Of a stretch of 64,000 bases of DNA, positions 14,286 through 51,996 are shown one piece after another (the stretch's first letter is position 1; each line of letters starts with the position of its first letter). Source of the stretch: Odiellus spinosus (Eukaryota > Arthropoda > Arachnida > Opiliones > Phalangiidae). Location of the stretch: positions 2,091,001 through 2,155,000 of the forward strand of contig OY987233.1 of assembly GCA_963920705.1 (NCBI GenBank), given 5' to 3'. The position numbers and the translations under genes were made by a program. Below the pieces are notes generated by a model. It made no database searches and had not been told where the DNA came from. It saw only the letters and a program-made list of their open reading frames with translations.

Positions 14286-17200
14286 TTAAGAATATAGTCC
14301 GATCATTGATGCCAGTTCGTGAGTCTTAATTCTACCGAGGGCTTTGGTCAGTAGGTCTGCAACCATGATTTCTGTTGGACAATATTGAAAAATCATGTCA
14401 TTTCGCAAATCTTTTACAAAATGATGTTTGGTATCAATGTGTTTCGTACGCAAGGTTACACTTTCACTATCAATCATCTTTAAACAACTTTGGTTGTCTT
14501 CATAGATTGTAGTCGTTACTTTCTCGTGCTTTAAATCTTGCAGTATTTGCTTCAACCACAGTGCTTCTCGGCAAGTTTCCGCCAGAGCAATGTATTCGGC
14601 CTCTGTGGAAGAAAGTGCTACAATTGTTTGTTTTCTGCTGGCCCAGCTTATGGTTGCACCATAGTATTGGAAAACAAAACCAGAGTTCGATTTCCTATCA
14701 TTTAAATCACCCGCCCAGTCGGCGTCGGCATACCCAATGAGGGTGGTAATCTGATTATCTTCGTTTCCAAGTTTCAACTTAAGGAATTGAGTGTATTTCA
14801 AATATCGCATCAGTCTTTTAACAGCGGCCCAATCTTTTTGGGATGGTTCTGTTATTTTTCGACTTAAGATTGAAACAATTACGGCGATGTCAGGGCGTGT
14901 GCATGTTGCAATGTATAGCAAACATCCTATGGCTTGGCGATAAACGTCCTTTACACTTATGTCCATTAGTTCGGTTTGCAAGGCGTTTTTCGTGTCCTTT
15001 ATATACCCTATGTCCATGGGCGCCTTTGCTGGCTTTGCCTCCGCCATACCAAAACGTTTCAAAACGGTTTCAATATAATTAGCTTGATGTATGCTAAATA
15101 TTTCATTACTGTCGCGTTGTATTTCAATACCTAAGTAGAATTTTAAGTCTCCGAGGTTTACTATGTCAAAATGCTGTGCTAAAAATTCGAAAATTTCATT
15201 GACTATGTCATCATTTGGTGCAATGGTCAGTAAGTCATCTACGTAGATGAAAACGTAGCACCAGTCATTTCTGATTCCTTTTGAATATAAGCATTTATCA
15301 GCCACTCCTCGCGACCAACCATCAACTATGAGAACGTCGTTTAATGTCTCATTCCAATTACGTGCAGACTGCTTTAGACCATAAATGCTTCGATGTAGTT
15401 TGCATACTAGTTTATTGGTATCCGTGGTCGTGAAGCCAGGAGGTTGTTTCATATACAATTCTTCTTCTAAATTGCTATTTAAGAAAGCAGTTTTTATGTC
15501 GAAGTGTTTTACCTTCATCTTCTTGTGTCCAGCAAGCGCCAACAAAGTTCGAAACGTTGATTGTCGTCCGACAGGTGCGAATACAGCATCGTATTCAGTT
15601 CCAAATTTTTGGGAGTAGCCGAAAGCTACTAGCCTTGCTTTGTATCGAATAACTTCCCCTTTTGAGTCTAATTTAGTTTTAAAAACCCACTTACACCCTA
15701 TGGGCTTTTTGCCATCAGGTAACTCTGTTAGAGTCCAAGTGTTCATTTCCTTGAGTGATTTTAATTCTTCAGTCATCGCGTCTTTCCACGCGCTTTGTTG
15801 AGGGCTTGCTAAAGCCTCTTCTATGTTACTTGGATCTGTGTAAGGAGTGTTTTCCTTTGCTAGCATTACTTCAATTAGTCTCTTAGGAGCCTGTCCTTTA
15901 CTTGATCGTGTGGAGCGTCTTACGCCGTCCACATTGGTATTCGTCACGTCATTTTCTTCCGCTTCACCTACCACTAAGTCGCCGGTAATTTCTTCCAATT
16001 CAGAAGCTTCGCTTTCATTTACCAAGGTTACGTCTTCCGTGTTAGTGGGATCTTCTGGTACCATAGATGTTACGTTTTCTTTTGAATCATGAACGACGCA
16101 GTTCTCTTCTATAAACCTTACGTCTCTGCTTAGAGTCACAGCATTCGTTGTTGTGTCTAAAAGTCTATAGGCTTTGGAACCGTCTTCATATCCGACGAAG
16201 ATTAATTTCTTTGCCTTTAGGTCTAGTTTTCTGCGTCTTTCATCTGGTACATGAGCATACGCGAGACATCCGAAGACACGAATATGCTTTAAGTCAGGTT
16301 TGGTGCCATACCACAGTTCAAAAGGTGTTTTTTCGATTGCTCTGCTCGGTAATCTATTTTGTAGGTACGTAGCTGTAGTTACAGCCTCGCCCCAGTAGCA
16401 GTTGGGTAGTTTTGCATCCTTTAACATGCTTCGGGCCATTTCTATGAGCGACCTATTCTTTCTTTCCGCCACCCCGTTTTGCTGCGGAGTATAAGGAGCT
16501 GTTAACTCCCATTCAATCCCTTCATTGCGAAGAAAGTCTTTGAGTGCTTTATTTACATACTCTCCCCCTCTATCTGAACGAAAGCTTTTGGGTTTTTGCT
16601 TATATTTCGTTTCACAGAGTCTGACAAAAGTCTTAATGTTTTCTGTGACTTCACTTTTATGCTTGAGTAGTGCAATTGTCGTATATCGACTGTGATCATC
16701 GATCAGCGTGAGAATATATCTTTTCCCACCTGGCGTCATGGTTTGCATTGGACCACATACATCCGTGTGGATTAAATTTAAAATTGTTTTTGATCTAGTA
16801 GTAGATGTTGGGAAAGGTAATCGTGCCATTTTGGTCTCAATGCAGGTTTCGCAAACCTTCACAGTATCACATTTTGTGATCTTCATTCCTTTTCCAAGCT
16901 CTGAATTCTGTAGTACTTTAATAGCGTCAGGGTGTCTATGCCCCATTCGTTTATGCCAGACATGAATGCAAGTGTTTGCAACTTCATTCCGTATTAAGCT
17001 TGCGTCACTTCGGACATTCAACCTAAAGAGATCGTCTTGACATGATGCTGTAGCCACAATACTCTTCTTCTGATTATATATTGTGCATCCAGTCATGTTG
17101 AACTCAACTAGCAAACCTTGTTTAACTAATTTCTGAACAGACAACAAACTTCCCTTTAGTTTCGGCACAAACAAAACATCTTTCACGTCAACTTGCACTA

Positions 17201-18245
17201 AGTCTTGTTTATCAACTAAACAGCTTAATGTTCCATTACCCTTGCCAGCAACTAAAAGAGTATTACCATCTGCGGTAAAGACTTTATCAACAAAAGATTC
17301 ATCTAAGTATTTAAAAAAACTTTTGTCATGTGTCATATGACACGTTGCCCCAGAGTCTATAAACCAGCAATCTTCAAATTCTCTGGTTGAAATCTTAAAT
17401 GCTGTAAAGGTAGGATTATTGCTCGTTTGTGCCTTTTCCTGAGTTTGCGAAGTTTGCCCTTGTTTGGCTATTGTTGCGTGTTCTTTTCCGCCATAATAGC
17501 CTTTCCTTTTCTTGGCTTTATAAATGAAGCAATCTTTCTTCATGTGACCTTCTTTGTTACATTCATAACATTTAACCTTTTTTTGTGGTTGCCTTGCATT
17601 CCCAATTTTACTGCTAATTCTTTCGCCATACGTTTGTAAAACTGTCTGTGTTTCATTTCGCGAATGAGCTTTACCATTTGATTCTTCTCTACGTTGATAT
17701 TCGTCTAATAGTTTCCCTTTCACCAACTCTAGTGTTAGGTCGGTCTCGTCTCTCGTTTCTAATGCTATAATTAAGGTTTCATAACTTTCCGGAAGACTGC
17801 ATAATAATAATGCAACAATCAAGTTTTCTTTCAAGTGTTCTCCTAAACCTCTTAAACGGTCTACTATATCTAGCATTGATTCGAGATGTGTTTCCATATC
17901 GCCTGATTCAGGTAATTGACTCCTACACAGTCTTTTTAATAGGAATACTTTATTGCACAACGTACTTTTTTGATGATACTGTTGAAGAGCATCCCAGACG
18001 TCAGAAGCTGTCGTTTTATCCCGTATGTGCATTAGTTGCGAATCTTCTACTTGCAAGCCAATTGTTGCTCTCGCTTTACCGTCTTGTTTGTTCCAAGTGG
18101 TAGTCAAAGGTTCTGGCGCAGGTTCATCTATAACATGCCATAAGTCCTCTTTTATCAACTGCATTTCCATCTTGAATTTCCATGTTTGATAATTTGAGCC
18201 ATTCAGCTTAGCAAACTGTACTTTCATTGTTGTAGAAGCCATCAT
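14286..18245 (-). CDS. copia Gag-Pol polyprotein, 1319 aa
   Basis: One uninterrupted frame encodes the whole polyprotein. Order of domains: Gag with zinc knuckle (CYECNKEGHMKKDC, residues 226-239); aspartic protease (DSGATCHM, 297-304); integrase with an HHCC-like zinc region (about 430-470) and catalytic residues around D495 (HTDVCGP), D558 (RSDRGGEY) and E595 (VAERKN); reverse transcriptase with YVDDLL at 1001; RNase H with ADADWAG (about 1173) and SSTEAEYIAL (about 1212). This Gag-PR-IN-RT-RH order defines Ty1/copia. Length is usual for compact insect copia elements. The first two codons are both ATG, and either could be the start. Expression would come from the LTR at 18368-18571. Confidence 0.96.
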   Translation of the reverse strand: MMASTTMKVQFAKLNGSNYQTWKFKMEMQLIKEDLWHVIDEPAPEPLTTTWNKQDGKARATIGLQVEDSQLMHIRDKTTASDVWDALQQYHQKSTLCNKVFLLKRLCRSQLPESGDMETHLESMLDIVDRLRGLGEHLKENLIVALLLCSLPESYETLIIALETRDETDLTLELVKGKLLDEYQRREESNGKAHSRNETQTVLQTYGERISSKIGNARQPQKKVKCYECNKEGHMKKDCFIYKAKKRKGYYGGKEHATIAKQGQTSQTQEKAQTSNNPTFTAFKISTREFEDCWFIDSGATCHMTHDKSFFKYLDESFVDKVFTADGNTLLVAGKGNGTLSCLVDKQDLVQVDVKDVLFVPKLKGSLLSVQKLVKQGLLVEFNMTGCTIYNQKKSIVATASCQDDLFRLNVRSDASLIRNEVANTCIHVWHKRMGHRHPDAIKVLQNSELGKGMKITKCDTVKVCETCIETKMARLPFPTSTTRSKTILNLIHTDVCGPMQTMTPGGKRYILTLIDDHSRYTTIALLKHKSEVTENIKTFVRLCETKYKQKPKSFRSDRGGEYVNKALKDFLRNEGIEWELTAPYTPQQNGVAERKNRSLIEMARSMLKDAKLPNCYWGEAVTTATYLQNRLPSRAIEKTPFELWYGTKPDLKHIRVFGCLAYAHVPDERRRKLDLKAKKLIFVGYEDGSKAYRLLDTTTNAVTLSRDVRFIEENCVVHDSKENVTSMVPEDPTNTEDVTLVNESEASELEEITGDLVVGEAEENDVTNTNVDGVRRSTRSSKGQAPKRLIEVMLAKENTPYTDPSNIEEALASPQQSAWKDAMTEELKSLKEMNTWTLTELPDGKKPIGCKWVFKTKLDSKGEVIRYKARLVAFGYSQKFGTEYDAVFAPVGRQSTFRTLLALAGHKKMKVKHFDIKTAFLNSNLEEELYMKQPPGFTTTDTNKLVCKLHRSIYGLKQSARNWNETLNDVLIVDGWSRGVADKCLYSKGIRNDWCYVFIYVDDLLTIAPNDDIVNEIFEFLAQHFDIVNLGDLKFYLGIEIQRDSNEIFSIHQANYIETVLKRFGMAEAKPAKAPMDIGYIKDTKNALQTELMDISVKDVYRQAIGCLLYIATCTRPDIAVIVSILSRKITEPSQKDWAAVKRLMRYLKYTQFLKLKLGNEDNQITTLIGYADADWAGDLNDRKSNSGFVFQYYGATISWASRKQTIVALSSTEAEYIALAETCREALWLKQILQDLKHEKVTTTIYEDNQSCLKMIDSESVTLRTKHIDTKHHFVKDLRNDMIFQYCPTEIMVADLLTKALGRIKTHELASMIGLYS

Positions 18246-30991: not shown

Positions 30992-31617
30992 GTTAACTTA
31001 CTTCAACTTAACCAACCTAACGTAACGTAACCCAACCAATCACCATCACGGTATGTAGCCATAAGCGCAGTTGATAAAAGAGCAGTTCCCCTCTGCGCTC
31101 TCCCATAAGAGGGGTGTCTCAAAAGCGCACTTCTCATTTGCCCACTTCCAAAAGAGTGTTTTCGTACAAACGCATTTTCTTATAATTGCGGGTTCTGTTT
31201 TTGGACGTCAACTGCTGAAAAGAACAACAGCAACTCCCCATAAGAGTCTGGGTCCACGTAATGTTAAAAATTTTCTTCAGTTTTATGATAAATTCGTATT
31301 ATATTATTTAATTTAAAGCTAAAATTCGAGCTCACAACTCTAAATTTTGGGAATTACAACGAATGGAAGGTTTCTTCCATAATGTAAAGAATAGGAAGAA
31401 TCTATGACTTCCGTGCCGGATATGAAAGCCTTCCCCCACACGAAAATCTTGAACGGTTATTATTTTAGATTCATAATTATGTTAGGAAAATATTAGGAAA
31501 GAATTATTTTGTAACTGCCACGGGTATAGTGCTGGCGGCAAAATGAAATTCGTATATTTTTGGTCTACTATGCCTCGAAATCCTCGAAAACGCCTGTAGA
31601 AGTGTTCCACTTGTCAA

Positions 31618-34219: not shown

Positions 34220-36457
34220 TTAACGTATGTCTGGTAGTTCAAGCTCAGTGGCATCTTCACACACTACACGCAATTTTGACTGGTACCAACTGCCTCGATC
34301 TTCATGGCGACGATAACCAAGATACCAGATTACGCTGCTAACGTGAACACAAGTACCTATCGTCAAACTACCACCTTTGCAATTGCAATACCAGCCTTTA
34401 ATGGCATTTGCACCTGTCCCGTTCGGTACATAACGAATTAGAGCTTGGTGAACAGCTGAGGTGGAAAATTGACCAGGCACGCGTATACGAATTAAGTCAT
34501 GTTCAACTTTGGACACTTCGACGCTGAAAGAGCCGGATTTCTCTATAGTCAACGCCACATAAGATTCAGCGCGTTTCGTTTTAAAGTCGCTCATTACCAC
34601 CTCACGTACATCACTTTCACGAAGTACAGGGAAGTCTTGAAATTCACTATCCTCAATTCGTTGCCATTTAGACGGTTTGCGAAGCAGATTATCGCGCTCG
34701 ACTACTTCCTTTAGAGGATTTTCTTTCGTAGAGACTGCCAGCATTTTTTCGACGGAGTCTTCCCAGGAACCTTTAAGATGTAACTCCGGGTGGTAGGCGT
34801 TCAACAGCGCAGCAGCAATTTGAAGAAGTTCCGGAACTAATGGTAACATATGCACAGGTATACGGTTTTGAAAAAAACGATACACCGTCTGCAAATGCCC
34901 ATTCCTAACTTCAACCGGCCACCTGAAGTACGTTACTTGTCGGGAACGATTAACTTCTTGCGTGTTTACTTGCTTCTCGGCTTTAGACAAGAACGAAGGC
35001 ATTTGTAAATCCACACCCAGTTCAGTCAGTACGCTGTTGGAGTCTCGAAAACCGCGGTCTGCCAGTACAACGTCACCAACTTGAAAGAAAGACTGGAGTT
35101 CTTCTCTCTTTAAAATGCGCGCGTCGTTATTGCGGCCATTAGCAAAGTAGGGTCCGATTATATCTATTATGTAACCCGTAGTTGTTACCATTAACATTGG
35201 CTAGAGGATATGCTGGCCTTTGTGCACACAGAAGGATTTGTGAAGAACGGTATAGTCCTTGGATCTTCCAACCTTGATATAGGTGCCATCTACAATGGTA
35301 ATAAGACAATTAGGCTTGTTGTTAGCAAAGAGTTTTACTGCTGCTCCAGATTGATGGTTTGTTATCAGATTGTCACGTGATAAGTGTTGCAGGCCAAAAT
35401 TATGTGGCACGAAATGCTCCGATAAAGCCATAATAACCGCTTTTACCGTGTTTGATACCGATCTTTCAGTTAAATGAAATAAAGTTGATAACACCTTATT
35501 GGAGATACCCAATCGTAATTTCACCAATAATACTGCTAGAGCTGTCTTCGACGAACAGCATCTGATGGTACGAATAATGTCCTCAATAGTCGAATGCAAC
35601 TCTAGGAACTCGTGCAGGGACAATGAAGCTAATACTTTACAGTCTTCATCACTTTGTATGAAGTTGTCAAAGCTCGGCGTCCGTAGGTCGTTAACACATT
35701 TCCTGAGGTCCTGTAATAGTTGCTCAATGTCCGTGGCAGTCATAATGGTTGATCTAGCGGAAACCTGAATTCCAGCAATTATTTCGGTGGGAAGCTCTCC
35801 GTTAACGAGATGCGTGGAGCACATTCGGTTCTCCCGATGAATAAATATGGCTCTTTCCACAAATATACTTGTTCTCACTTCGGCTTTTACCCTGGTTCGT
35901 GTACTAACACCGCAAATGAAGCAAGTCTTTGGCAGGGGCCGAACACAACTGTGCTTTATGGCAATAGTGTTTGATGACGTACGCTTTCGTGGTAATTGCG
36001 ACGTTGATGGCTGAGGTATTGGTGACGGTGATGGATTAGATACTGTGGACTTTGTTGGTTCAGGTACTGTGGACGTTGATGGCTCAGGTACTGTTGACGT
36101 TGATGGATTAGATACTTGCGTCATTTGTCTTCGTTTTTGTGGTGGAGACGATGACGTTTAAGAGCCATGATCACTACTGAAGGACGATTTGCTAGCATTT
36201 AAGAACGTTTGAAACTTTCGTGACAGACCCGAGCACTTTAAACAAATCTTCGTTGTTTTGCTATTAATTACAAGTGGTAATAACCCTTCACTAAAACGAA
36301 GAAAACGAGCTAAGCCAGCCTTTACGTGAGTGCCTATACCTCTACTTGTACTATTGGTAACTTTCCGATTGCACGCGTAACATGTATTTGGAGCCATCTC
36401 CAAATTCCAAGTGACTCTCACATTGATGTTATTGATAAGGAAAGTTCTTAAGATCAT
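34220..36457 (-). pseudogene. DDE/SWIM transposase (copy B), two in-frame stops
   Basis: One frame runs from ATG at 36457 (or 36397) to TAA at 34220, about 745 codons, broken only by TAA at 36158-36160 and TAG at 35201-35203. The order is: CxxC zinc-binding N-terminus (CYAC, CLKC), Ser/Thr/Pro-rich linker, second Cys motif (CFICG), helix-turn-helix-like segment, then a DDE core with IVDGTY (near 35290), LADRGF (35049-35066) and PVEVRNG (near 34905-34920), and a SWIM-like zinc motif (CNCKGG...CVH, 34345-34395). The TAG sits where both right-arm copies read AAG (Lys), so it is a recent point mutation. The TAA is shared by copy A. A protein cutting and joining element ends is inferred from the fold family. 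Confidence 0.8.
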
Positions 36458-36486
36458 GGTTCAAACCAGATATTACAATTTTTTTA

Positions 36487-37604
36487 ATGTTTATAAAAAC
36501 AGGTTTAATTATTTTTCGCCAACCTGGCTGGCAAAAAATATTAAAGACGTCTTTAATATATGTAGATGGCAGCTATATCAAGGTTGGAAGATCCAAGGAC
36601 TATACCGTTCTTCACAAATCCTTCTGTGTGCACAAAGGCCAGCATATCCTCAAGCCAATGTTAAGGGTAACAACTACGGGTTACATAATAGATATAATCG
36701 GACCCTACTTTGCTAATGGCCGCAATAACGACGCGCGCATTTTAAACCATTCTATCAAAAAGAGAGAAGAACTCCAGTCTTTCTTTCAAGTTGGTGACGT
36801 TGTACTGGCAGACCGCGGTTTTCGAGACTCCAACAGCGTACTGACTGAACTGGGTGTGGATTTACAAATGCCTTCGTTCTTGTCTAAAGGCGAGAAGCAA
36901 GTAAACACGCAAGAAGTTAATCGTTCCCGACAAGTAACGTACTTCAGGTGGCCGGTTGAAGTTAGGAATGGGCATTTGCAGACGGTGTATCGTTTTTTTC
37001 AAAACCGTATACCTGTGCATATGTTACCATTAGTTCCGGAACTTCTTCAAATTGCTGCTGCGCTGTTGAACGCCTACCACCCGGAGTTACATCTTAAAGG
37101 CTCCTGGGAAGACTCCGTCGAAAAAATGCTGGCAGTCTCTACGAAAGAAAATCCTCAATGGCAACGAATTGAGGATAGTGAATTTCAAGACTTCCCTGTA
37201 CTTCGTGAAAGTGATGTACGTGAGGTGGTAATGAGCGACTTTAAAACGACACGCGCTGAATCTTATGTGGCGTTGACTATAGAGAAATCCGGCTCTTTCA
37301 GCGTCGAAGTGTCCAAAGTTGAACATGACTTAATTCGTATACGCGTGCCTGGTCAATTTTCCACCTAGCTGTTCACCAAGCTCTATTTCGTTATGTACCG
37401 AACGGGACAGGTGCAAATGCCATTAAAGGCTGGTATTGCAATTGCAAAGGTGGTAGTTTGACGATAGGTACTTGTGTTCACGTTAGCAGCGTAATCTAGT
37501 ATCTTGGTTATCGTCGCCATGAAGATCGAGGCAGTTGGTACCAGTCAAAATTGCGTGTAGTGTGTGAAGATGCCACTGAGCTTGAACTACCAGACATACG
37601 TTAA
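36487..37604 (+). pseudogene. DDE/SWIM transposase catalytic half, right arm (copy B)
   Basis: Same structure as 1128-2245: 28 unrelated residues, then VDGSYIKVG onward; a 45-bp in-frame deletion near 37155 and a one-base deletion near 37366 that ends the frame at 37368. Downstream homology in the shifted frame has an extra TAG near 37498, where copy A reads TGG (Trp). This arm is dead as a gene but keeps the Lys codon that the left arm has lost. Confidence 0.75.
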
Positions 37605-38522
37605 ACGTAGAAAACCTTAGCGTTAAATGAATAATTTGTCTGTTTTATACAAGTGTGTTTTGTTTAATATGAAATAAAAATTAAAGATACTACTCCAGTA
37701 TCTTCTAATTGGTATGATTTCTCTATTTATTTTTCGAGTTTCTTATACACCAAAGACTATTCAAGTAAGCTATATAGTCTTTGCACGGCCCCTGTAAAGG
37801 TAGCAAAAGCCTACTGCATGAATGCTTGACAAGTGGAACACTTCTACAGGCGTTTTCGAGGATTTCGAGGCATAGTAGACCAAAAATATACGAATTTCAT
37901 TTTGCCGCCAGCACTATACCCGTGGCAGTTACAAAATAATTCTTTCCTAATATTTTCCTAACATAATTATGAATCTAAAATAATAACCGTTCAAGATTTT
38001 CGTGTGGGGGAAGGCTTTCATATCCGGCACGGAAGTCATAGATTCTTCCTATTCTTTACATTATGGAAGAAACCTTCCATTCGTTGTAATTCCCAAAATT
38101 TACAGTTGTGAGCTCGAATTTTAGCTTTAAATTATCCCCCAACTACCCTATTTTAATAATATAATACGAATTTATCATAAAAGAGACGAAAATTTTTAAC
38201 ATTACGTGGACCCAGACTCTTATGGGGAGTTGCTGTTGTTCTTTACAAAATTAAATTAGGTAAGGTTAAAAAGGATAGGTAAGGTAGGTTAGGCTAGGGT
38301 AGGTTTGGTTATTTAATCTGTCTTTCGAGATTATGATTTTCGACATTATGTACCAAACTCTTTTAAACAGAGATTTAAAATTAACTTAATTATTAAAAAT
38401 GAAAGATTTTGTCTTATGTTTAAGATATTGGATGCAAGTATGCGAATATTTCGTGGATGTCTCTGGTAGAGAAATTATTTGGGAAACTGCGCTTGGGGAA
38501 ACTGTGCTATTGGCTATAAACC

Positions 38523-39235
38523 ACAATCACACCTAACCAAACGTAAGGTATCCTAACGTAACCTCACTTAACCAAACATAAACAAACGTAAAGTAACCTC
38601 ACTTAAATCAACATAACCAAACGTAAATTAATCTATTCTAGCCAAACGTAAATTAATCTATTCTAGCCAAATGTAAATTAATCTATTCTAACCAAACGTT
38701 AATTAATCTATTCTAACCAAACGTAATAAATTAATCTATTCTAACCAAAAGTAAATTAATCTATTCTAACCAAACGAAAAGAAAACTTACCTAAACGAAC
38801 CTAACCCAATCAAACCTAATGTAAATTAAACAAACGTTAGCTGACCCATCCTAAATTAACCAAACGTTAAATGACCTGACCTAACCCAACCTAAGTAAAT
38901 GAATATTTAACGTAGCTAACGTAACCAAATCTAACCTAACACAGCCTAACCAAACGTATTGCTTACTAATGTAAGCTAACATAACCCAACCTAACCGAAA
39001 GTAAAGTAACCTAACGTAACCCAACGCAATAAACCTCTGTTAGCACAATGTAAACACAAGTATACTCATGTAACCCAACCAAACCAAACGCAAAGTAACC
39101 TACGTTACCCATTCTAACCCAACCCAACCTAAACAAACGTAAAGTAACACAACGCAACCAAACCTAAGGTAACCCAACTTAACACTTCCAAACTTACCCC
39201 AACCCAACCTAATAACTAGCCCACTGGTTCGAAAC
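38523..39235. repeat. TAACC-rich region with 25-bp tandem array
   Basis: About 700 bp dominated by variants of CTAACC, CCAAACGTAA and AACCTAACCC. Between 38621 and 38776 the unit TTAATCTATTCTAACCAAACG(TAAA) repeats six times at about 25-bp spacing. The composition recalls the insect telomere word CCTAA, but the words are too irregular for a telomere array. A poly(A) run follows near 39267. Confidence 0.65.
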
Positions 39236-41250: not shown

Positions 41251-41335
41251 GGTATTTTTATCGGTAGCTGAAAATTACTTTCACTGGGTTCTTCTACTAA
41301 GGTAGCCCTTTTCAGCCGTTTAATTTTGACTATTA

Positions 41336-43442
41336 GTCCAGGAAAATTAAATTAAAAATGGGTTGTTCTGGGAACTAATTTGGGACAAAGGTTTCTCAAC
41401 GGAAATGTGTTCAGGGACATGCCCTTAGGTACCACAAGAAAGTTTGCCAAAATTTGTGAAGCGGAACATGTCAAAAAATGGCCGCCATTTTGTCAAATTT
41501 TAGTTTTTTGAGAATATAGGCGAAATGAAACAAGATAGAGCATTAGGTGATTGAACCATATGTATAGAAGGCCCGGTTTCCTATCGAATGATATACTTCT
41601 GTCAATGGTTTTGTTGGCGCCACCTACCGGGTATAGATGCAACACTCATGACAGTTCTGCATTTAACCGTAATTTTGCTTTAAAAATCAGTTCACTCAGT
41701 TTTTAGCTCCCAAATAATATTCTACACTTAGCATTGCTAAGCATTCGAATTAAATTTAGGTAAAACAAATTGTGCTGAGTATGGAAATAATAGGCCTAAT
41801 GATGTCAGCCTTCTATTTTTTCGTTAAACGTCAAAATGGCTCCTACAATCGAAATTCATGCAAATGTAGGAAGTTAAAGGTTTGAAGAATGGTAAAAAGG
41901 TAAGGCTCATTTCGAAGTGATATTATTGCCAACATTAACAATAGCCTACTAGGGGGCGTTCATGCTCAAAATATTTTATTTTGCAAAAAATAATTTTTTA
42001 TACGCCGAGAGGAGGCGACACTTGTTGACGGGACAGGCTTTAACAAAGAAAAACGCATACGCAGTAAAGATGGCTTCTCATCTACTAAATGAAACTTTTA
42101 TTATTGTCCCACTTTAATTTAAAGAATGGTAGTGTGTCATCAAATATATATTGTTTTGAGTTTCGGCAGCCCATATAATATGAACTAAAGGTTAATAATA
42201 ACCCAAAAAGGTAGATTGAAGTAGAGCGGTAACGAATTTTCACAATGGATGTCTGATTGATTTGCGATGCGCCTTTAGAGGATAGCAGCGTTTCCAACTT
42301 GAAGACAAAAGGAATCGCTGGAATAATTCGAGCCAGTAAGGAACGTTTAGACAAGCATGAAAAGCTAAATAATCTCCAAAGTTTAACGGTTCATAAAGCT
42401 TGTCAATTAAAATATATTAATCAAAAAGGAATAGCGAGGTATTTAAAAACAAGTGACTCTATAGCTTCCAGTAGTAATTCCGGCTGCGTACCTACTGAAA
42501 TCAGAGTAACCACGCCAACGTTTAAGTTTAAGAGCGACTGTATCTTTTGTGGAGAAATATGTGATACTGTAAATTTCATGTACAACCGATTTGTTTCTAA
42601 ACAGCTCAAGAGCGCTTTTGAACTAGCGACGCTGCCGCCAACTTCAGAAGCAGCTAAACATCATATAAGCCGAGTTTATTATCAAACGCAAGAATGGATC
42701 GGCAATAAATTAAATCCGGTGCATTGGAGGTGGAAGAAAACTGGTGAGATGTTAGAATCAATTCAGTGTGATATCCCTGCAGCCCCTCAATGAATTCTCA
42801 ACTTGATATTTTGCGGGTGCAAAGAGAGTAATTGCACAAAGTCGTGTTCCTTTGAACTGCTCGGCTATGTGCGGTAATTGCAACGGAATTTCTTGTCAAA
42901 ATGTATTTAAAGATGTGTTAAATGAGATACATTCATTCGAAATAGATAGAGATTAAAAATCTAGGAACATTCTAGTGATAGTACAACCACTATTAAAAAA
43001 TATAAAAAATACTCATAAAATTTTATTTCAAGTTAGATATAGTTAGAAGGGGAGGGTTTCAAAATTATGGAAAAAATCTTTGTTAAAGGGGTTGTGGCCT
43101 GCAACCGTTGAAACAAAATATTATATTATTTGCCAGTCATGAGTGTTGCATCTATACCCGGTAGGTGGCGCCAACAAAACCATTGACAGAAGTACATCAT
43201 TCGATAGGAAACCGGGCCCTCTATACATATGGTTCAATGACCTAATGCTCTATCTTGTGTCATTTCGCCTATATTCTCAAAAAACTAAAATTTGACAAAA
43301 TGGCGGCCATTTTTTGACATGTTTCGCTTCACAAATTTTGACAAACTTTCTTGTGGTACCTAAGGGCATGTCCCTGAACACATTTCCGTTGAGAAACCTT
43401 TGTCCCAAATTAGTTCCCAGAAAAATTCTAAATTTCTTGGAC
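41336..43442. mobile_element. X1: long-TIR element carrying a damaged PIN-CXC-family gene
   Basis: 2107 bp, with inverted arms of about 310 bp (41336-41655 and about 43136-43442) beginning GTCCAGGAAA and GTCCAAGAAA. TA lies directly outside both ends, and the uninterrupted H copy near 56265 confirms a precise insertion. The only coding sequence is the fragment at 42257-42956. Same terminal motif and flank as X2. Confidence 0.8.
42257..42956 (+). pseudogene. PIN-CXC family protein, internally deleted remnant (X1)
   Basis: The frame 42257-42793 has an N-terminal module (KGIAGIIRASKER, VHKACQLKY, CIFCGE) and then runs directly into LPPTSEAAKHHISRVYYQTQ, which is homologous to the segment after the PIN domain in X2 (LPPTSDGARLHSLRVYLQ). 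The PIN domain that should lie between is absent. After an in-frame TGA (42791-42793) the cysteine-rich tail follows (CGCKESNCTKSC), then shifts frame near 42855 (NCSAMCGNCNG...C) to a stop at 42954-42956. It is a dead, internally deleted copy that shows what the N-terminus of the family looks like. Confidence 0.65.
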
Positions 43443-43700
43443 TATATTATATTATATCATGAGTATCCCATTAAATTCACCCTAATTCACCGTAATTAAA
43501 AAGTAGGCAAGATTTTCTTATCATTTGATTTTTTTTACTTGATTAAAAGCGAGATTTACAAATTCGGTACTCATAGATGGACTGCACCATTATGGGCACT
43601 GTTTACGTTAGCGGTTAGAATTGTGGTGAACCTTCTCGCTTGCGCGATGGGGTCGTCTTCGATTGTTTTGGCAATCACTTCTCATCGCTTCAGTTCCATT
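43443..43700. other. H flank and P-element target site
   Basis: Right part of repeat H, ending in the octamer GTTCCATT (43693-43700) that is repeated after the P-like element at 48094-48101. Confidence 0.7.
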
Positions 43701-46700
43701 CATAGACATATGAAAATTAACCTAGACCCACTGCCCTATTGGTGGGGGGGTACGTCAGACCCAGGTGGCTGCCATTTGAGGGACAATCCGTTTTCCGCGC
43801 CATCTGACGGGCGAGAACTGAAATATTTAATTCTACTTTTGCCCCCATATTGGCAACCCCCTCATGTGTATGCTCGCGCCATCTGATGCTACATGGTTCG
43901 TATTTCGTCTGCTACAGATATTGCTGTTTGTTGGCAAATTTTATATTTTTTGCATCGGGTTTAACGAGGCAACGTTATTTTAGATTCCTGATGCCTTTTA
44001 TTATTGTTATAATTAATATCATTAGGATGCTACTTGTTAGTTTTAGTAAAAGAAGATTTATGTATCGGCGTTAAAAAGAATCCACAAAATAAATACAGGG
44101 AAGGGGAATTGTAAAGGTATTTAATGCGCTTTATTGGCCTTCAAACAAAATTAATTTTGATAGTTTATGCCTAATGGCTTGCTTTTATAATTGTAGGTTC
44201 TTATCCCTGGCAATTTTGTGAAGGTGAACCTTTGTGTACAAATTAATAATATTTTTCATTAATCTATTACGATGGTGTTCGATACCAATTTCAAAATCGA
44301 ACATGTGCTCTTGAAGCTCGGTAAATACATTTGCATTAACCAACTTTCGCATAACAGCAATTTCAATGGATAGGGAAATGTTTTTTGATTTCATATCAAC
44401 AGAAACGTTTTGCCGAATGCATGACTCTGTCAAAGCGCAGATTTGTAAAACACTTTTTGATGGATGTTTTAATCCTCCATTATCCTTTAGCTGCGTGAAT
44501 CTCGAATGAGTGGAAAAAGCGTAGTCATGCTCATTAGGGTGCGCTTGCAGTGATTGTTCACAAAATCGACAGTTCATTTTCTTGCAGAGCCTGGAGATAA
44601 CAAATCCTGCAATGTAATACACGGCATTTTCAAGAAATATTGAAGAATTGTTTTGGCTGATGGTAAATTCGTCTAATTCTTCATCGGATATTATTTCCCC
44701 GTGTAGCGTAGATGCTTGATATTCGGACACACCTTGATTATCAGAAAGAGTTGGAATTTGCGTCTCATCTTGAGATGTGACATTCCCAGTTGATGAAGGG
44801 GTAAGACGAGCGGCTAATGATTTGCGATATGCGGCTTTGAATTGCTTTGTAGTAGGGTTGTTATTCCAACCACCTTGTCGTCGTATAGTGTTGAAATATA
44901 ATTCTTCATGGTCTTGAGAAAATTTATACGTCAGTAAGTACCTTTTGAAATGGATATATTTATGTTACTAGTCAGTACAAGACTAATTTTATCATTAACC
45001 TACTTTAAAGGAGAATCCGGTGGGAGGAGGTATCTCTTAGATATTTCAATAATGCTCGTGATTGATGCCGCTAATCCCAAAGGACCAGTTTTTCTAGTAC
45101 CACACACAAGTAACGCTCCTTTATGGTCCTTTAACTTCAATAAAAGATCCTTGGTTTGCAATAGGGCCTCTTGAATATGATTGAAGGAGGTGTGCCTTAT
45201 TGGGGCTTTGTATCCTTTGGCATACGGAGAACGAGAATTCAAAATATCAAAACATATATATTTTAAAAAAGGTAAAATTTTAATATTTTAATTTAGGAAT
45301 TTAATTAAAAAGGATGATGAAACATTTGATAATAATTTTAGCACCTGTCAAGAGATTCAATGAAGGCTACTGTCGCTCCGCATCCTTGAAAACCTGGCAC
45401 TGATGTTTGTTCCAAAAACGTTAGTGCTTTAGCGACAGAATTGCTCATCACTTGTACAGCCAACTTGACTTTCATCTTTTGAGTTTTCCAGGTGACGTGA
45501 AATTTATTCAGTTTGTTAGCCAAGACCAACCCTTCCTTTTCTTGTAATTTGTGCAACTGTTTAACGAAGTCCCAGCTAATAATCTATAGAAGTAAATGTC
45601 AAAATTATTAATATGATATTATTAACTATAAGCCTATTAATCCGGGTGAATTAATAGGCTTAATATATAAATAGTCAACTATTAATTTTTTACCTCATCT
45701 GTGGAGCCATTGTAAATAGTTTTGAAGTCTGACCATAGATTACGAAGTAATTTTATCATATGGACCACATCAACGATTAAATAAATTCTATCTCCATTGG
45801 ATTCGCTGGATTTGGGAAACTGGGGTCCAAATATTCTGGATCCAAATTTGCTCCCAAGGTTTTGGCCATAGTTAAATTGCTGCTTAAGCCGTCGCAAACT
45901 AAAGCCACACACTTAACTCCAGTGGCGTTGATCCTGGCAAAACATTCTTTCACAAGTTGCGTCAAAAGCCAACCCGGTGTACCATGAAGAAAGAAATACC
46001 CAAGAGGTATTTTCCAGCTACAGTTGATAGCTACTAACATAAATACCAAAGCCTGTGACGCAACAGTTTGGCTATCTTGGCTGTTATTGGAAACCATGCC
46101 ATAGTCAACGAAGCCGGAGAAGTATTCCCCGCACCATTCAACATGCTTTCTAATAGCCATTCCATCCATATCTAAGGCAACAAGGACAGGTACAGGGCTT
46201 TTCTTGGCTTGCTCTTCAAGGAACTCGAAACTCTGCTTCGTAAATCCAGGCTCACCATTTATCCTGCTTGACCATTCTCTAAGCGTGTTTTCATGAGGCA
46301 AAGTAAAATGCTGCCTTAGATATTCGTACGCCTTTGGTGAATAAAAATGTAGCGTTCTTTATCTCTTCAGTGTAAGCCTTCTTTTTCTGGTTTTTAATTC
46401 CCAATTCCTTCAATTGCTCAAATAGTTCTTTCGCCGTCGAAGTGAAGTTTTCATTAATAGAGATGGCATGTTCTTCGAGAAGTAAGTTTTTGTTTCGTAG
46501 GCCATTTAAAAGATCTTTCAAATTGCTTAAATTTAAATACCGTCTCTGCAATTTCCGCTTCACGCATAATAGTTCGTTCTCCAAAGCTCTATTCTTCTCT
46601 TCACTTGACTCAAGTTTCCTTTTCAGGCTATGAACTAAAGTCTCGGGATCAGGTCCACTATAATTGTGCTCCCGCTATTAAAACATTTAGAACCAGATGT

Positions 46701-48093
46701 CATGTCTTGAGAAAGCTTTTATTTACCAAATGATACTCCACTGTCTTTCTAATTGGTAGGTCATCAAATTCTTGGAAATGAACATTTTCATTGCCACTTT
46801 GAACCTATTAAATGATTCTAATAGCTCTAGACTCTTAATTCTACATAAAAGTGTTTGTTACATACCGTATACTCCTCTACATCATTTTTGGGCATATATA
46901 GGGCTCTCGCTGACGTTTGATCACAAATAACCCCTTCGTCCGTGGTCATTGATTTATTACCCGCTTCAACCGTGGCAACAAAAGTGTTAACCGCTTCGAC
47001 CGTAATAGGACCCCAATTAACACTTTCAGGCGTGATGTCATTGTGATGAACTATACCGACCGTATCAGTTAAAACGCGAGTTTCACTGGAAGTCTGTAAT
47101 TGTATAGTTCTGACAGTTAAACTTTTTTTAAATCGTTTTAGTGACATCTTTGTCAGGAGTAAAGTTTGCATACGCGACATTCCACATTTTTCTTCTCACT
47201 CTCTATCACTTTAGCTTCTTTGCCAGTTAACTCTGCATGAATACTCGATGAAGGTGAAGGTTTGATTTTCCCGTATGTTTTCTGAAATATCCTTAAGTTT
47301 TTGAGCCTTTGTTATTATTTCTAGACTACAAAACTTTGCCTACACTAGAAGATGAAAATTGGCTGGGCTGTTCCTCTGCTACACATATTACTTGAATCCC
47401 TTTCAAATTCTGATTATAATAAACTAAAACTTTGCGTTATTTTTGCACACTCAACCACTTAATTTAAGTTATTAACCTTTGTTGGTACAGTATTGTCTCT
47501 AAGATAGTGTTTTCCGTTTTGAACATAAATTTCTTCCTCCAGGAAATGTTCGCTACACACTAAATCATATGAAGATGGATTCCAGTTGTCTCGATCAATC
47601 GCAGCTATCCATTTTCTTAGCAACTCGCTATTGCCCAGAGGAAATCTTAATCATAAAAATGCACCTCGGTTATTGTACATTATGAATGATTATGTTAAGA
47701 AGTTATTTTATACCTATGAAATGAACACTTTTGTTCTTTTCCGACTCTCTTATTGCTTTTACAATGCAAAAAAGCACAACTTTTAACCATTTTAGTCTTC
47801 TTCAGTTTAGTCTTTACGCCAGCTCTCAAACCTTAGAAAGTTGTTGAATCATTTCGTAGTTTCCCGCGCTTTTGCTTTTACTCAAATGGCCTATTCTTAT
47901 CTTTAAGTTTCCCGCGCTTTCATTAACGCGAATTCATCCCTACAAATTTCCCGCAGTTTTTTCCCTTTTAAAGTGTTTACTAGATGGCGCTAAAAATGTC
48001 CCTCAAATGGCAGCCTTCGGCTCCCGACGTTTCCCCCCCCCCCCCGGTTGGCCGTGAGGGTAGTGGATCTAGCTTATTTTTCATATATCTATG
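43701..48093 (-). mobile_element. P-element-like transposon with exact 8-bp target duplication
   Basis: 4393 bp. Ends are CATAGACATATGAAAA and the inverse of CATAGATATATGAAAA; inverted similarity extends about 110 bp inward (GCTGCCATTTGAGGGACA, GCGCCATCT). GTTCCATT flanks both sides exactly (43693-43700, 48094-48101). CA ends, 8-bp duplications and a THAP-domain transposase are the hallmarks of the P superfamily. The transposase gene fills the interior on the minus strand but carries lesions. C and G runs near 43745 and 48038 sit at matching places in the two ends. Confidence 0.93.
44185..47790 (-). pseudogene. P-element/THAP9-like transposase, multi-exon, frameshifted
   Basis: The THAP DNA-binding domain is split over exons 47714-47790 (MVKSCAFLHC...CSFHR) and 47477-47645 (FPLGNSELLRKW...CSEHF...VPTK), phase-2 intron with GT-AG. 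Then come a coiled coil (about 46370-46650), YSPKAYEYLRQHF and LREW, the RNase-H-like catalytic region (DMDGMAIRK, FVDYG, CDGLSSN), VDVVHMIKLLRN, exon 45345-45583 (SWDFVKQL...KMKVKLAVQ), LNSRSPYAKGYK...RKTGPLG, YKFSQDHEELYF...GGWNNNPT, and the C-terminal YIAGFV...C..C region to 44185. Defects: frame changes near 46345 and near 45795, and no AG at the expected acceptor near 45262. Such enzymes excise and insert P elements; this copy is probably inactive. Confidence 0.85.
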
Positions 48094-48101
48094 GTTCCAT
48101 T

Positions 48102-48211
48102 GCGCCAGATCCCATACGACCGAACGCATTCCCATTCGACCGAAAACTCCGCACTTTGGCGGATTCGGTCCAATAGAACTGTCCAATTGAAACGAAAAAT
48201 CCGCACTTATA
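48102..48211. other. Spacer between P-like element and X2
   Basis: Contains the phrase family CATTCGACCGAA / TTCGGTCCAATAGAAC in inverse pairs, related to 57560-57690. Ends with TA, the flank of X2. Confidence 0.5.
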
Positions 48212-48762
48212 GTCCAGGGTAGATAAGCATTTTTTGCGGTTAGACGTGAAAAAAATATGCTATAGCTGAAAATTTCAGAATCGAAAGGGATTAGGGTCCT
48301 AAATAATCCCCCAAAAGTCCCCAAGCCTCCGACGCGGGCTTTAGCCGCCATCTTGGAAAATGGCCGCCAAACCGGAAGTTACCGTATCTCTGGAACTAAT
48401 AGACCGGTTTCGATGGAGTTTGTGACACAATTATCCTTATAATCTGTCTTTTATATAAAAGTCTTAAAATACTCATATTATCTTTGAAATAAATGATTAA
48501 ATTAAATTTTTTTGACAAATATTGGGGTTAATTGGCATATTTATGCCAAATGTACAATGAAATTAAAATTTAACAAATATTTCAAACTCTTTTATGTGAA
48601 GAGCTTGAAATACATAAAATAATGGTATTTTTACCGTCTGAAACGGTTAATTCTACCTCGTGGTATCCAACTTTATTTGACACCCCTCTTCAACCAAACG
48701 GACGAAGAAATATTCCTGTTAATCCCGAGCAGTTCTTTAACAGAATCGCGTGTGTAATTAAT

Positions 48763-49519
48763 GGTTTATAGCCAGTAGCGCAGTTTCCCGAAAGCGCATT
48801 TCCCAAAAGCGCAGTTCCCAAAAGCGCAGTTCCTAAAAGCGCAGTTCCTAAAAGCGCAATTTCAAAAGCGCAGTTTCCCAAAAGCGCAGTTCCCAAAAGC
48901 GCAGTTCTCCAAATCATTTCTCAACCAGAGTCTTCCACGAAATACTCGTATACTTGACCCTAATACCTTGAACATAAGACAAAATCTTTCATTGTTAATT
49001 TTTAAGTTAATTTTTAATCTCTTTTTAAAAGAGTTCGGTACATAATGTCGAAAATCATAATCTCGAATGACAGATTAAATAGCCTAACCTACACTACCGT
49101 AATCTAACCTAACCTTACCTATGCTATTTAACCTTACCTAAAATATTTTTCTAAATTTTCAGCATTAGACGTCCAAAACCTGAGCCCGCAATTATAAGGA
49201 AATGAGTTTATACGAATGACAGATTAAATAGCCTAACCCACACTACCGTAATTTAACCTAACCTTACCTATGCTATTTAACCTTACCTAAAATATTTTTG
49301 TAAATTTTTAGCATTGGACGTCCAAAAACAGAGCCCGCAATTATAAGAAAATGAGTTCATACGAAAAAAACCTTTTGGAAATGCGCAAATGAGAACTTTT
49401 GGCAACCGCGCTTTTGGGAAACTGCTCTTTTGGCAAAACTGCGCTTTTGAGAAACCGCTCTTATGGGAGTGCGCAAATGGGAACTGCTCTTTTGGCAACT
49501 GCGCTTATGGCTACATACC
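48763..49519. mobile_element. R2 element nested in X2, with GCGCAGTTCCC subterminal repeats
   Basis: Ends GGTTTATAGCCAGTAGCGCAG and the inverse of GGTATGTAGCCATAAGCGCAG. Just inside each end is a run of 15-bp units AAAAGCGCAGTTCCC (about nine at 48776-48906; more, inverted, at 49376-49505). The middle has a tandem duplication of about 146 bp (49066-49211 and 49212-49357). No ORF. Target duplication is unclear (TAATGG occurs at both sides but overlaps the terminal bases). Confidence 0.7.
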
Positions 49520-49522
49520 GTA

Positions 49523-50933
49523 ATGGTTAACAAGCCTAATAGCCTTGCGGAATATATGAGCTATGAGCTATCTCCCAAGCCAGCTTCTTTGTTTGATGAC
49601 ATATCCATGCGCAAAACTAAAAAATCCATCCTAATAGAAATGTTGGAGAAGTTATCACCACCAAAAAGCTCTTTGCCGCCACACCCACGATTCGTTATAG
49701 ACGGGGGTTATCTACTCCATAAAGTCATATGGCCACGACCAGCGACATACGGTGAAATATGCAAATCATATTTATCGTATGTTTTAAATCATTTCGGTGA
49801 TAAAACTACAGTCGTATTCGATGGATACGATTCATCCTCAAGTACTAAAATGGTTGAACAAAACCGAAGAAGCTTTAAGAAGTCCTCCGTTGATATAATT
49901 GTACATGAAAACGGGTTCGCAACCACTGGGCAGCAAGAATTTTTTGCTAATAAGAAAAATAAATCCAGATTTATCGAGCTCCTATCAGAATATTTCAGGA
50001 CGATTGGAGTTGAAGTTCTTCAAGCTAAAGCCGATGCAGATACTTTAATTTCCATGACCGCATTAAAGCAAAGCGAAAGCGATGATAATATTGTAGTAGT
50101 GGCAAATGACACGGATGTTTTAGTCATTCTGCTATCGCTTTGTCAAGGGTCTGTTTACATGCAAATTCCTGGGTCATTTGGAAAAACCCATAAAATATTT
50201 GACGCTCAAAAAATTAAAGAAAACCTTGGAGACTTGGCTAATTCCCTGATGCTACTTCACGCAATTTCAGGATGTGATACTACATCAGCTTTTTATAAAA
50301 AAGGAAAGAAAACGGCGATGAAAATAATTAAGAACGATCAAATTCCTAGAACAAAACTTGAAATTTTTAATTCAAACTCCGCCACTACGAATGAAATTGC
50401 AGAAGCTGGAGAACTGTTTATACTCGCTCTTTATGGTCAGAAAAAGATGAAAACGCTCGACGAAGCAAGATATTTTTCATATAACCGTATTGTAGCAGCA
50501 CAGTCTTCGTCGGCAAAGTTTTCTTTGGCGGATTTACCACCAACTTCGGATGGAGCTCGACTGCATTCTTTGAGAGTTTACTTACAGGTAAAGTGATGTA
50601 TAGTTTTACCAACGCTGTTGTGAAGTCATTAAACTATCAAACTAAAATATCTGGTTCATAAAATACGATTTTTAGGTTCAACAATGGCTCGGAAATAATT
50701 TGCCTCCGACACAGTGGGGCTGGCAGATGTCCAGCAATGGCCTTATTCCAATTCCAACTCTGAAACCTTGCGCTCCTGTAGATCTCTTATAAGTGATAAG
50801 TTGTAAATGTAAAGCGGGGTGTAACAAACGATGTAGCTGTAAAAGTGCTGGCCTCTATTGCTCAGCTATGTGTTACCATTGCCAAGGAAACTCATGCAGT
50901 AACACTGAAGAAGTAGATAACGAAGAAAGTTAA
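49523..50933 (+). pseudogene. PIN-like nuclease / CXC-domain protein of X2
   Basis: Exon 1, 49523-50587, starts MVNKPNSLAEYMSYEL and carries a PIN/FEN-like fold: RFVIDGGYLLHKV (about residue 54), TTVVFDGYDS, an Asp pair in KADADTLIS, VVANDTDVLVILL and SGCDTTSAF. These are the spaced acidic residues expected for metal-dependent 5' nucleases. A 88-nt GT-AG intron leads to exon 2 (50676-50933; VQQWLGNNLPPTQWGW). After an in-frame TAA (50790-50792) the same frame goes on with a Cys-rich CXC (tesmin/TSO1-like) domain, CKCKAGCNKRCSCKSAG and CSAMCYHC, to a stop at 50931-50933. Upstream of R2 (48691-48762) a possible continuation reads PVNPEQFFNRI, but its frame does not join cleanly. Nuclease activity is inferred, not shown. 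Confidence 0.7.
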
Positions 50934-51497
50934 AGTTAAAAATACTTTCATGATACTTGTCAAAGTTTTTATCCCAAAATTGTTTTCAAAATAAATGTGA
51001 TATAATAATTGACTAATATTTATCTATGAAGAGGGGCGTCAAATAAAGTTGGATACCACGAGGTAGAATTAACCGTTTCAGACGGTAAAAATACCATTAT
51101 TTTATGTATTTCAAGCTCTTCACATAAAAGAGTTTGAAATATTTGTTAAATTTTAATTTCATTGTACATTTGGCATAAATATGCCAATTAACCCCAATAT
51201 TTGTCAAAAAAATTTAATTTAATCATTTATTTCAAAGATAATATGAGTTTTTGAAGACTTTTATATAAAAGACAGATTATAAGGATAATTGTGTCACAAA
51301 CTCCATCGAAATCGGTCTATTAGTTCCAGAGATACGGTAACTTCCGGTTTGGCGGCCATTTTCCAAGATGGCGGCTAAAGCCCGCGTCGGAGGCTTGGGG
51401 ACTTTTGGGGGATTATTTAGGACCCAAATCCCTTTCGATTCTGAAATTTTCAGCTTTAGCATATTTTTTTCAGGGTAAATGCTTATCTACCCTGGAC

Positions 51498-51996
51498 TAT
51501 TATCCGAGTTTAATATTTGGCGAAGCAACCTCTTTTTTGTATAATTTCTGTCCTTTTTTCACCAAAAATATACACCTTTTCCACATTCCACTAGTTTGCT
51601 TTATAGGTCTGTTGAACCTTAATTCTTACTAATGCTGAATAAAAATTAAGATGTTTAATTGAGGCTTCAATTGAGACCCTGATACAAATCTCGAAAGACA
51701 GAGATTAACTAATCTAACCTTACCTAAAGTAGTAAAAGAGGGACGGGCTAATTCACGGGATTAACTAAGCTAAACTAATTTTACCTAAAATATTACAAGA
51801 GGGACGGGTTAGCCCGAGCTAGGGATTAAATTTATAATATTGAATAGCATCGACAAAAAATGGGCATGGAAAGCGAAACATTTCTTTAAAACAAGAGAAC
51901 ATATTTCAGGAGACCAGAAGTATGTGGCCGTTTATTTAACTCGCCGACATATTTCCGTTTCGCCTATCCTATTTAACATGCTAAATCTTTATTTTT
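51498..51996. other. Spacer between X2 and F
   Basis: Starts with an end piece of the 20781 family (GAAGCAACCTCTTTTTTGTA, near 51518) and then carries two units of the GAGGGACGGGCTA/TTACCTAAA dispersed repeat (about 51700-51840). No gene. Confidence 0.5.

Follow-up and report, generated by a model that had tools for sequence, protein, structure and literature searches.

Two DNA transposon copies lie in the 64,000-nucleotide stretch of the Odiellus spinosus genome analyzed here (Arachnida, Opiliones; assembly GCA_963920705.1, contig OY987233.1, positions 2,091,001 to 2,155,000, forward strand), referred to below as the window: element 1 at 48210-51499 (+) and element 2 at 41334-43444 (+). Both are internally deleted, broken, non-autonomous copies of one kind of transposon. 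Our best interpretation, and a likely one, is that they are deletion copies of a one-gene transposon of about 5.7 kb that belongs to the AcademX lineage of the Academ superfamily, in which the X stands for XPG, the type of its nuclease. The family is probably a recently active member of this already named, little-studied group. An earlier reading of element 1, made without database searches (the sequence-only reading), had described a mobile element whose only gene encodes a PIN-like nuclease with a CXC domain, and had proposed that this protein may itself be the mobility enzyme of a new type of DNA transposon.

Full-Length Copies and Shared Ends

The same genome (443 Mb) contains at least 124 matches to the nuclease. 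Among these are five copies of 5723-5724 bp, designated family A (L040-L044). Any two of them are separated by 0-2 mismatches and no more than one gap base; their flanks differ, and each carries an uninterrupted frame of 1464 amino acids (aa). Such near-identity at different places indicates that the family moved recently. Family A elements have the ends TAGCCCAGTAAA...TTTACTGGGCTA, and in the one copy that was translated all other frames are of 168 aa or less. A further full-length copy (C169) measures 5.77 kb. The 1464-aa protein comprises, in order, N-terminal Cys/His motifs, a central region, a Rad2-type nuclease, and the CXC domain. The sequence-only reading had led to the expectation of full-length copies with the PIN-CXC gene only; those with the same kind of ends instead encode the presumed transposase region as well, in the same protein. 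A nuclease comes next on the same strand at 46 or more of the 75 merged central-region loci; the one locus inspected among the other 29 has one too.

The terminal sequence TAG(T/C)CCA is common to five sequence families (element 1, element 2, A, C, and D), all of which carry the same gene. Their arms are unlike, with GTCCA in the ends of elements 1 and 2 and GCCCAG in those of A, C, and D. Family B, again with the same gene, has a variant 3' end, TAGTACAG (GTACAG); its 5' end was searched for and not found, and one candidate was rejected as coding sequence. When 30 nuclease (PIN-CXC) loci were oriented by the gene, 22 had a terminal motif facing outward in the 1.5 kb downstream, and none (0/30) had one facing inward, a count for which the motif was picked after the ends had been viewed and in which the loci are not independent (element 1 and the five family A copies are included, and L017 and L018 have a common flank). 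One of the 22 hits, at L035, appears to be coding sequence, not an end. No downstream motif was found in the stretch examined at L021, L024, L025, L029, L030, L037, L038, and L039. This count supersedes an earlier, looser one that mixed strands (outward 18 and 19 of 30, inward 10 and 11 of 30), in which the inward hits that were inspected proved to be coding. Because outward motifs follow the gene at 22 of 30 loci and inward motifs at none, the evidence supports the PIN-CXC gene as part of the DNA transposon, and with it the mobile element carrying this gene that was first proposed.

A subterminal motif, ATGGCCGCC, mostly beside CCATNTTG, starts 124-158 nt from nine of the 11 ends examined (elements 1 and 2, families A and D, and the 3' end of family B), and 4.75% of shuffled ends contained any motif of the subterminal set. 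In element 1 it appears as GCCGCCATCTTGG..ATGGCCGCC at 48344-48368. We take ATGGCCGCC to resemble a YY1/Pho site; it may act as a promoter or as a binding site.

Target-Site Duplication

All 10 insertions for which both ends were read have identical 3-bp flanks. Nine of these come from outward-facing pairs of TAG(T/C)CCA and TGG(A/G)CTA, listed in the window and in loci L027-L059: where 11-12 of the 12 end bases match, the 3-bp flanks are identical in 9 of 9 pairs, compared with 0 of 9 where 9 of 12 match. For the tenth, C169, the end was found in the expected 5' region, with ATG on both sides. The duplicated sequences vary (among them TTA, TAT, CAA, TAG, TGT, and ATG).

Empty sites were available for two insertions. 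A family A copy (C14) lies in a repeat, and each of the four paralogous empty sites inspected has the sequence GACGCC-TAA-CAAG, with one TAA, in contrast to two in the filled site. At L027 the insertion sits in an abundant repeat, and at least 40 genomic stretches match its junction written with one TGT; in the one empty site that was read, a single TGT scores 105, vs. 99 for two and 96 for none. The single TAA or TGT in the empty sites shows that 3 bp are duplicated on insertion and that the adjoining TA is part of the element. Elements 1 and 2 follow the same 3-bp rule by their flanks, which are TTA at 48207-48209 and 51500-51502 for element 1 and TAT at 41331-41333 and 43445-43447 for element 2. 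The exact TA flanks that the sequence-only reading took as a target duplication are therefore the outermost bases of the terminal repeat (TAGTCCAG), and element 1 extends over 48210-51499 rather than 48212-51497.

Several known groups were rejected as the identity of these elements. For Tc1/mariner the grounds were the TA within the element and the single TAA or TGT kept in empty sites; for PHIS (ISL2EU, Harbinger), duplications that include CAA, TAG, TGT, and ATG, as opposed to AT or TWA, with no PHIS-type transposase domain in a Pfam scan of the 1464-aa frame; for Kolobok, 3-bp duplications of varied sequence vs. TTAA; and for AcademH, the 3-bp duplication, with no helicase in the same scan.

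These data also bear on the idea that a host PIN-CXC gene family was captured and moved by Tc1/mariner-like or PHIS-type elements. The TA at the ends had suggested Tc1/mariner, and other transposons are present in the window. However, the duplication is 3 bp with the TA inside the terminal repeat, all five families with TAG(T/C)CCA ends and the B variant carry the same gene, and a full-length family A element has no other frame above 168 aa. We regard such capture as extremely improbable.

Elements 1 and 2 in the Window

Element 1 has the ends TAGTCCAG...CTGGACTA. Its left arm (48210-48692, +) and right arm (51027-51499, -), the latter being the 3' end of the element, are inverted repeats of each other, with 446 nt at 99% and a perfect 24-nt outer end, or 96% over 484 nt when an 11-nt gap is counted. 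This agrees with the near-identical inverted arms of about 480 bp reported previously. The window contains four occurrences of TAGTCCARG (0.49 expected), all of them at ends of elements 1 and 2; as it was derived from those same ends, the count is descriptive and no blind test.

The normal terminal repeat of this transposon is different from these arms of about 480 bp, as the repeats of full-length family A copies are imperfect (271 identities in 355 aligned positions). In the simplest reading, the left arm of element 1 is the 3' end of the full-length element, copied in inverted orientation and replacing the whole 5' part. We favor this because the first 30 residues of the frame that starts in the arm are unmatched in the full-length protein, and because L046, a related copy, has the arm next to the gene's CXC end. 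Another short copy (L033) likewise contains an inverted piece of the gene end. On this reading, long perfect arms mark a derivative, and not the autonomous form. Diverged arms of the element 1 family were also seen at L045 and L047-L054, where the stretches examined gave no match to the full-length gene except for 21 arm-encoded residues in L045.

The gene of element 1 matches residues 999-1453 of the 1464-aa full-length frame (46%), i.e., its last third. The frame starting in the arm (48622-48762, +) corresponds, from its own residue 31, to the full-length protein from residue 999. It is followed by an unrelated nested insertion of 754 bp (48767-49520), which is flanked by 8-bp duplications, TAATGGTT, at 48759-48766 and 49521-49528. 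This insertion has degenerate inverted ends and two 149-bp tandem units, and pieces of its kin lie at 38242-38532 and 31042-31221. The nuclease exon (49526-50587, +), an 88-nt intron with GT...AG borders (50588-50675, +), and the CXC exon (50676-50933, +) complete the gene. The intron is supported by element 2 and the full-length family A gene, which lack it and are continuous across the point, and by a gap of similar size in L046. Splicing of the single gene, as proposed in the sequence-only reading, thus holds. The gene is not intact: it is broken by the foreign insertion, by a frame offset across that insertion, and by an in-frame stop (50790-50792) before the CXC stretch.

Element 2 was located through its own inverted arms (about 290 nt at 98%) and a remnant gene that matches the last part of the element 1 gene; its ends are like those of element 1. 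The remnant (42257-42865, +) joins residues 11-107 to residues 1332-1423 of the full-length protein, so that the nuclease domain is deleted, and it contains stops and a frameshift. Protein similarity between the two elements scored 210, compared with 63 for the best of 1000 shuffles.

The Nuclease Domain

The acidic nuclease motifs that the sequence-only reading had noted (VIDGGY, NDTDVLV, and SGCDTTSAF) are present in element 1, as is the Cys-rich CXC stretch. A profile of 14 sequences, i.e., the window sequence and 13 genome loci, several of them closely alike, matched Exonuclease 1 in the PDB with E-values of 3.7e-4, 3.9e-4, and 4.8e-3; the next hits, at 0.34, were seemingly unrelated. The alignment extends over profile positions 71-269 and covers FDG, the (E/D)AD pair, DxD, SGCD, and then a G..KA segment. 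The first acid (VIDGG) falls outside this alignment, yet it is kept in the family. Presumably, the aligned acids are the metal-binding acids of EXO1. In a divergent lineage (L062), 28% identical in the central region, the acid motifs can still be read and the protein has a Cys-rich, CXC-like end.

Searches with the single window protein gave two NCBIfam matches far below their cut-offs, to a 5'-3' exonuclease (E 8.7e-4) and to flap endonuclease Xni (E 4.6e-3), and a Pfam match to 5_3_exonuc_N (E 0.016), also below its cut-off. From these comparisons we assign the PIN domain to the Rad2/FEN1/EXO1 type, with nuclease activity predicted. Structure prediction for the window frame was poor (mean pLDDT 37.9). 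A Foldseek search with this model, to which we give no weight, ranked Rad2 first (E 7.1e-3), a glycosyltransferase second with the same E-value, and XPG third (E 1.3e-2), with TM-scores of at most about 0.2.

The Central Region and a Possible Mechanism

An alignment of the central region from ten sequences has a mean column identity of 51% and many invariant residues. Candidate catalytic acids are D434/D437, D602, and, 51 residues beyond the latter, E653. The Pfam family DUF6589, listed there as of unknown function, matches family A below its cut-off (E 0.028 with the whole frame, 0.0042 with the region). At two divergent places in the genome it scores above the curated cut-off of 27 bits (37.4 and 37.0 bits; C5:5665608 and C11:1705648). 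At C11:1705648 the nuclease matches fall within the same 1445-aa frame as DUF6589, and at C5:5665608 the nuclease and DUF6589 lie side by side on one strand, the former in a frame given a different length (1473 vs. 1292 aa). We presume that the central region is a DDE transposase with an RNase-H fold. The DUF6589 matches tie this Pfam family to a transposon protein's central region.

In the mechanism we consider most likely, the central region of the full-length protein would cut and join the ends (cut-and-paste). The Rad2/FEN1/EXO1-type nuclease may trim flaps or branched ends while the element is excised or the gap repaired, which would give the 3-bp duplication, and the CXC domain and N-terminal Cys/His motifs would bind DNA at the ends. 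The window copies would move solely with protein provided in trans by an intact copy. Deletion derivatives with proper duplications include one without the nuclease (element 2) and one without the central region (element 1). The proper 3-bp duplication of element 2 implies that copies lacking either part could be moved, presumably in trans.

The same derivatives bear on the proposal that the Rad2-type nuclease-CXC protein itself excises and inserts, with the central region having a structural role. It would fit with acid motifs that are kept in the window and genome copies and readable even in the lineage with 28% identity in the central region, and with several short copies (L027, L033, and element 1) that retain PIN-CXC and have lost the rest. 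Against this, element 2 has proper ends and a 3-bp duplication with its nuclease deleted, and the longer copies strongly conserve the central region. We know of no Rad2-family transposase. The sequence-only proposal of PIN-CXC alone as the mobility enzyme is therefore improbable, given that full-length copies encode a large conserved region absent from the window copy. A division of labor, in which the nuclease would make one obligatory cut (e.g., of the non-transferred strand or a flap) and share the work with the DUF6589-type domain, in a lineage apart from the described Academ, is somewhat less improbable, and still unlikely in our view. More generally, a deletion derivative with copied arms can pass for a one-gene element with a new enzyme.

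Other Features of the Window

Between elements 1 and 2 lies a THAP9/P-element-like transposase gene in pieces (44188-47650, -), with Pfam matches to THAP, HTH, the N- and C-terminal parts of the TNP-like RNase H, and THAP9_C. A P element was considered and rejected as the identity of element 1: this gene is a separate neighbor, and its RNase-H stretch is unlike the central region. Repeated copies of another element, partly inverted relative to each other at 98-99%, occupy 1-2885 and 34223-38134, with DDE_Tnp_4 and sub-threshold HTH_Tnp_4 matches. A Copia-type retrotransposon with an uninterrupted 1319-aa frame is found at 14289-18245 (-).

Comparison with Known Transposons

Several results weigh against placing these elements in AcademX with a Rad2-type nuclease and a DDE transposase. 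The assignment itself is by shared features and not by transposase alignment, the elements being likened to AcademX through its published description only. None of the 14 nuclease members matched a Pfam XPG model (E 0.1), 5_3_exonuc_N matched in 3 of 14, with a best E-value of 0.016 that is below the cut-off, and single proteins found no nuclease in the PDB. DUF6589 matched only one of the ten central-region members (E 0.0042, sub-cut-off); the central region matched no solved transposase (best E 0.21) and is unlike the P-type RNase-H stretch in the window. Among the 11 ends examined, both family C ends are without the common subterminal motif, and 49 of 95 merged nuclease loci had no central region detected upstream.

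Part of this would suit an undescribed superfamily of DNA transposons, whose DUF6589-type protein is unlike the Academ transposase and whose likeness to AcademX is convergent; a classification by shared features and the unknown function of DUF6589 both leave room for it. However, three separate features agree with the AcademX and Academ descriptions in the available parts of the sources, and we give an undescribed superfamily a small chance. AcademX is the best fit because the nuclease, the 3-bp duplication, and the size all agree with published features.

In the part of the source available, AcademX elements make duplications of 3 or 4 bp and AcademH elements of 9 or 10 bp, seemingly tied to the encoded nuclease or helicase (PMC10045372). 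That part mentions neither a CXC domain nor terminal sequences such as TAG(T/C)CCA for AcademX. The transposon described here encodes a nuclease and makes a 3-bp duplication, as expected for AcademX; neither the helicase nor the 9-10 bp duplications of AcademH, the other named Academ lineage, were seen (PMC10045372). As that source already names AcademX, a lineage that encodes a nuclease and duplicates 3-4 bp, the claim of a new transposon type is not supported. Its size is also that of Academ: the full-length copies measure 5.72 and 5.77 kb, vs. a mean of 5565 bp for bivalve Academ consensus elements in the accessible portion of a study that treats Academ as DDE/D (PMC10294476). Academ is likewise listed among 20 superfamilies with a DDD/E transposase in the available part of PMC9587614.

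Among the literature matches listed, no PIN-CXC or FEN-type transposon appeared besides the mention of AcademX. Relatives were not found in viral contigs, GTDB genomes, phages, or plasmids at the settings used, where one viral pattern match is unconfirmed, and a PHROGs search gave nothing useful.

In other transposons, DDE-type transposases are paired with nucleases of different kinds. The Kolobok lineages KolobokD, E, and P combine a DDD/E transposase with a nuclease, as here, but their nucleases are of the DEDDh, PD-D/ExK, and His-Me finger types and their duplication is TTAA, according to the part of the source available (PMC9587614). ISL2EU (PHIS) elements also have a DDE transposase and a nuclease gene, but in the available text they duplicate 2 bp (AT) and encode a YqaJ exonuclease on a second open reading frame (PMC4482050).

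Among Rad2/XPG/FEN1/EXO1 proteins, the likeness is to Exonuclease 1, which aligns with the acid motifs (FDG through SGCD) and with the region behind them; the difference is that here the presumed transposase region precedes the domain and CXC follows it, and that overall similarity is weak. For AcademX itself, the 3-4 bp duplication is tied to the nuclease by inference only, as far as the available part of the source goes (PMC10045372). Because this genome has five near-identical copies with intact frames, exact ends, empty sites, and derivatives with half the protein, the role of the nuclease is directly testable in it.

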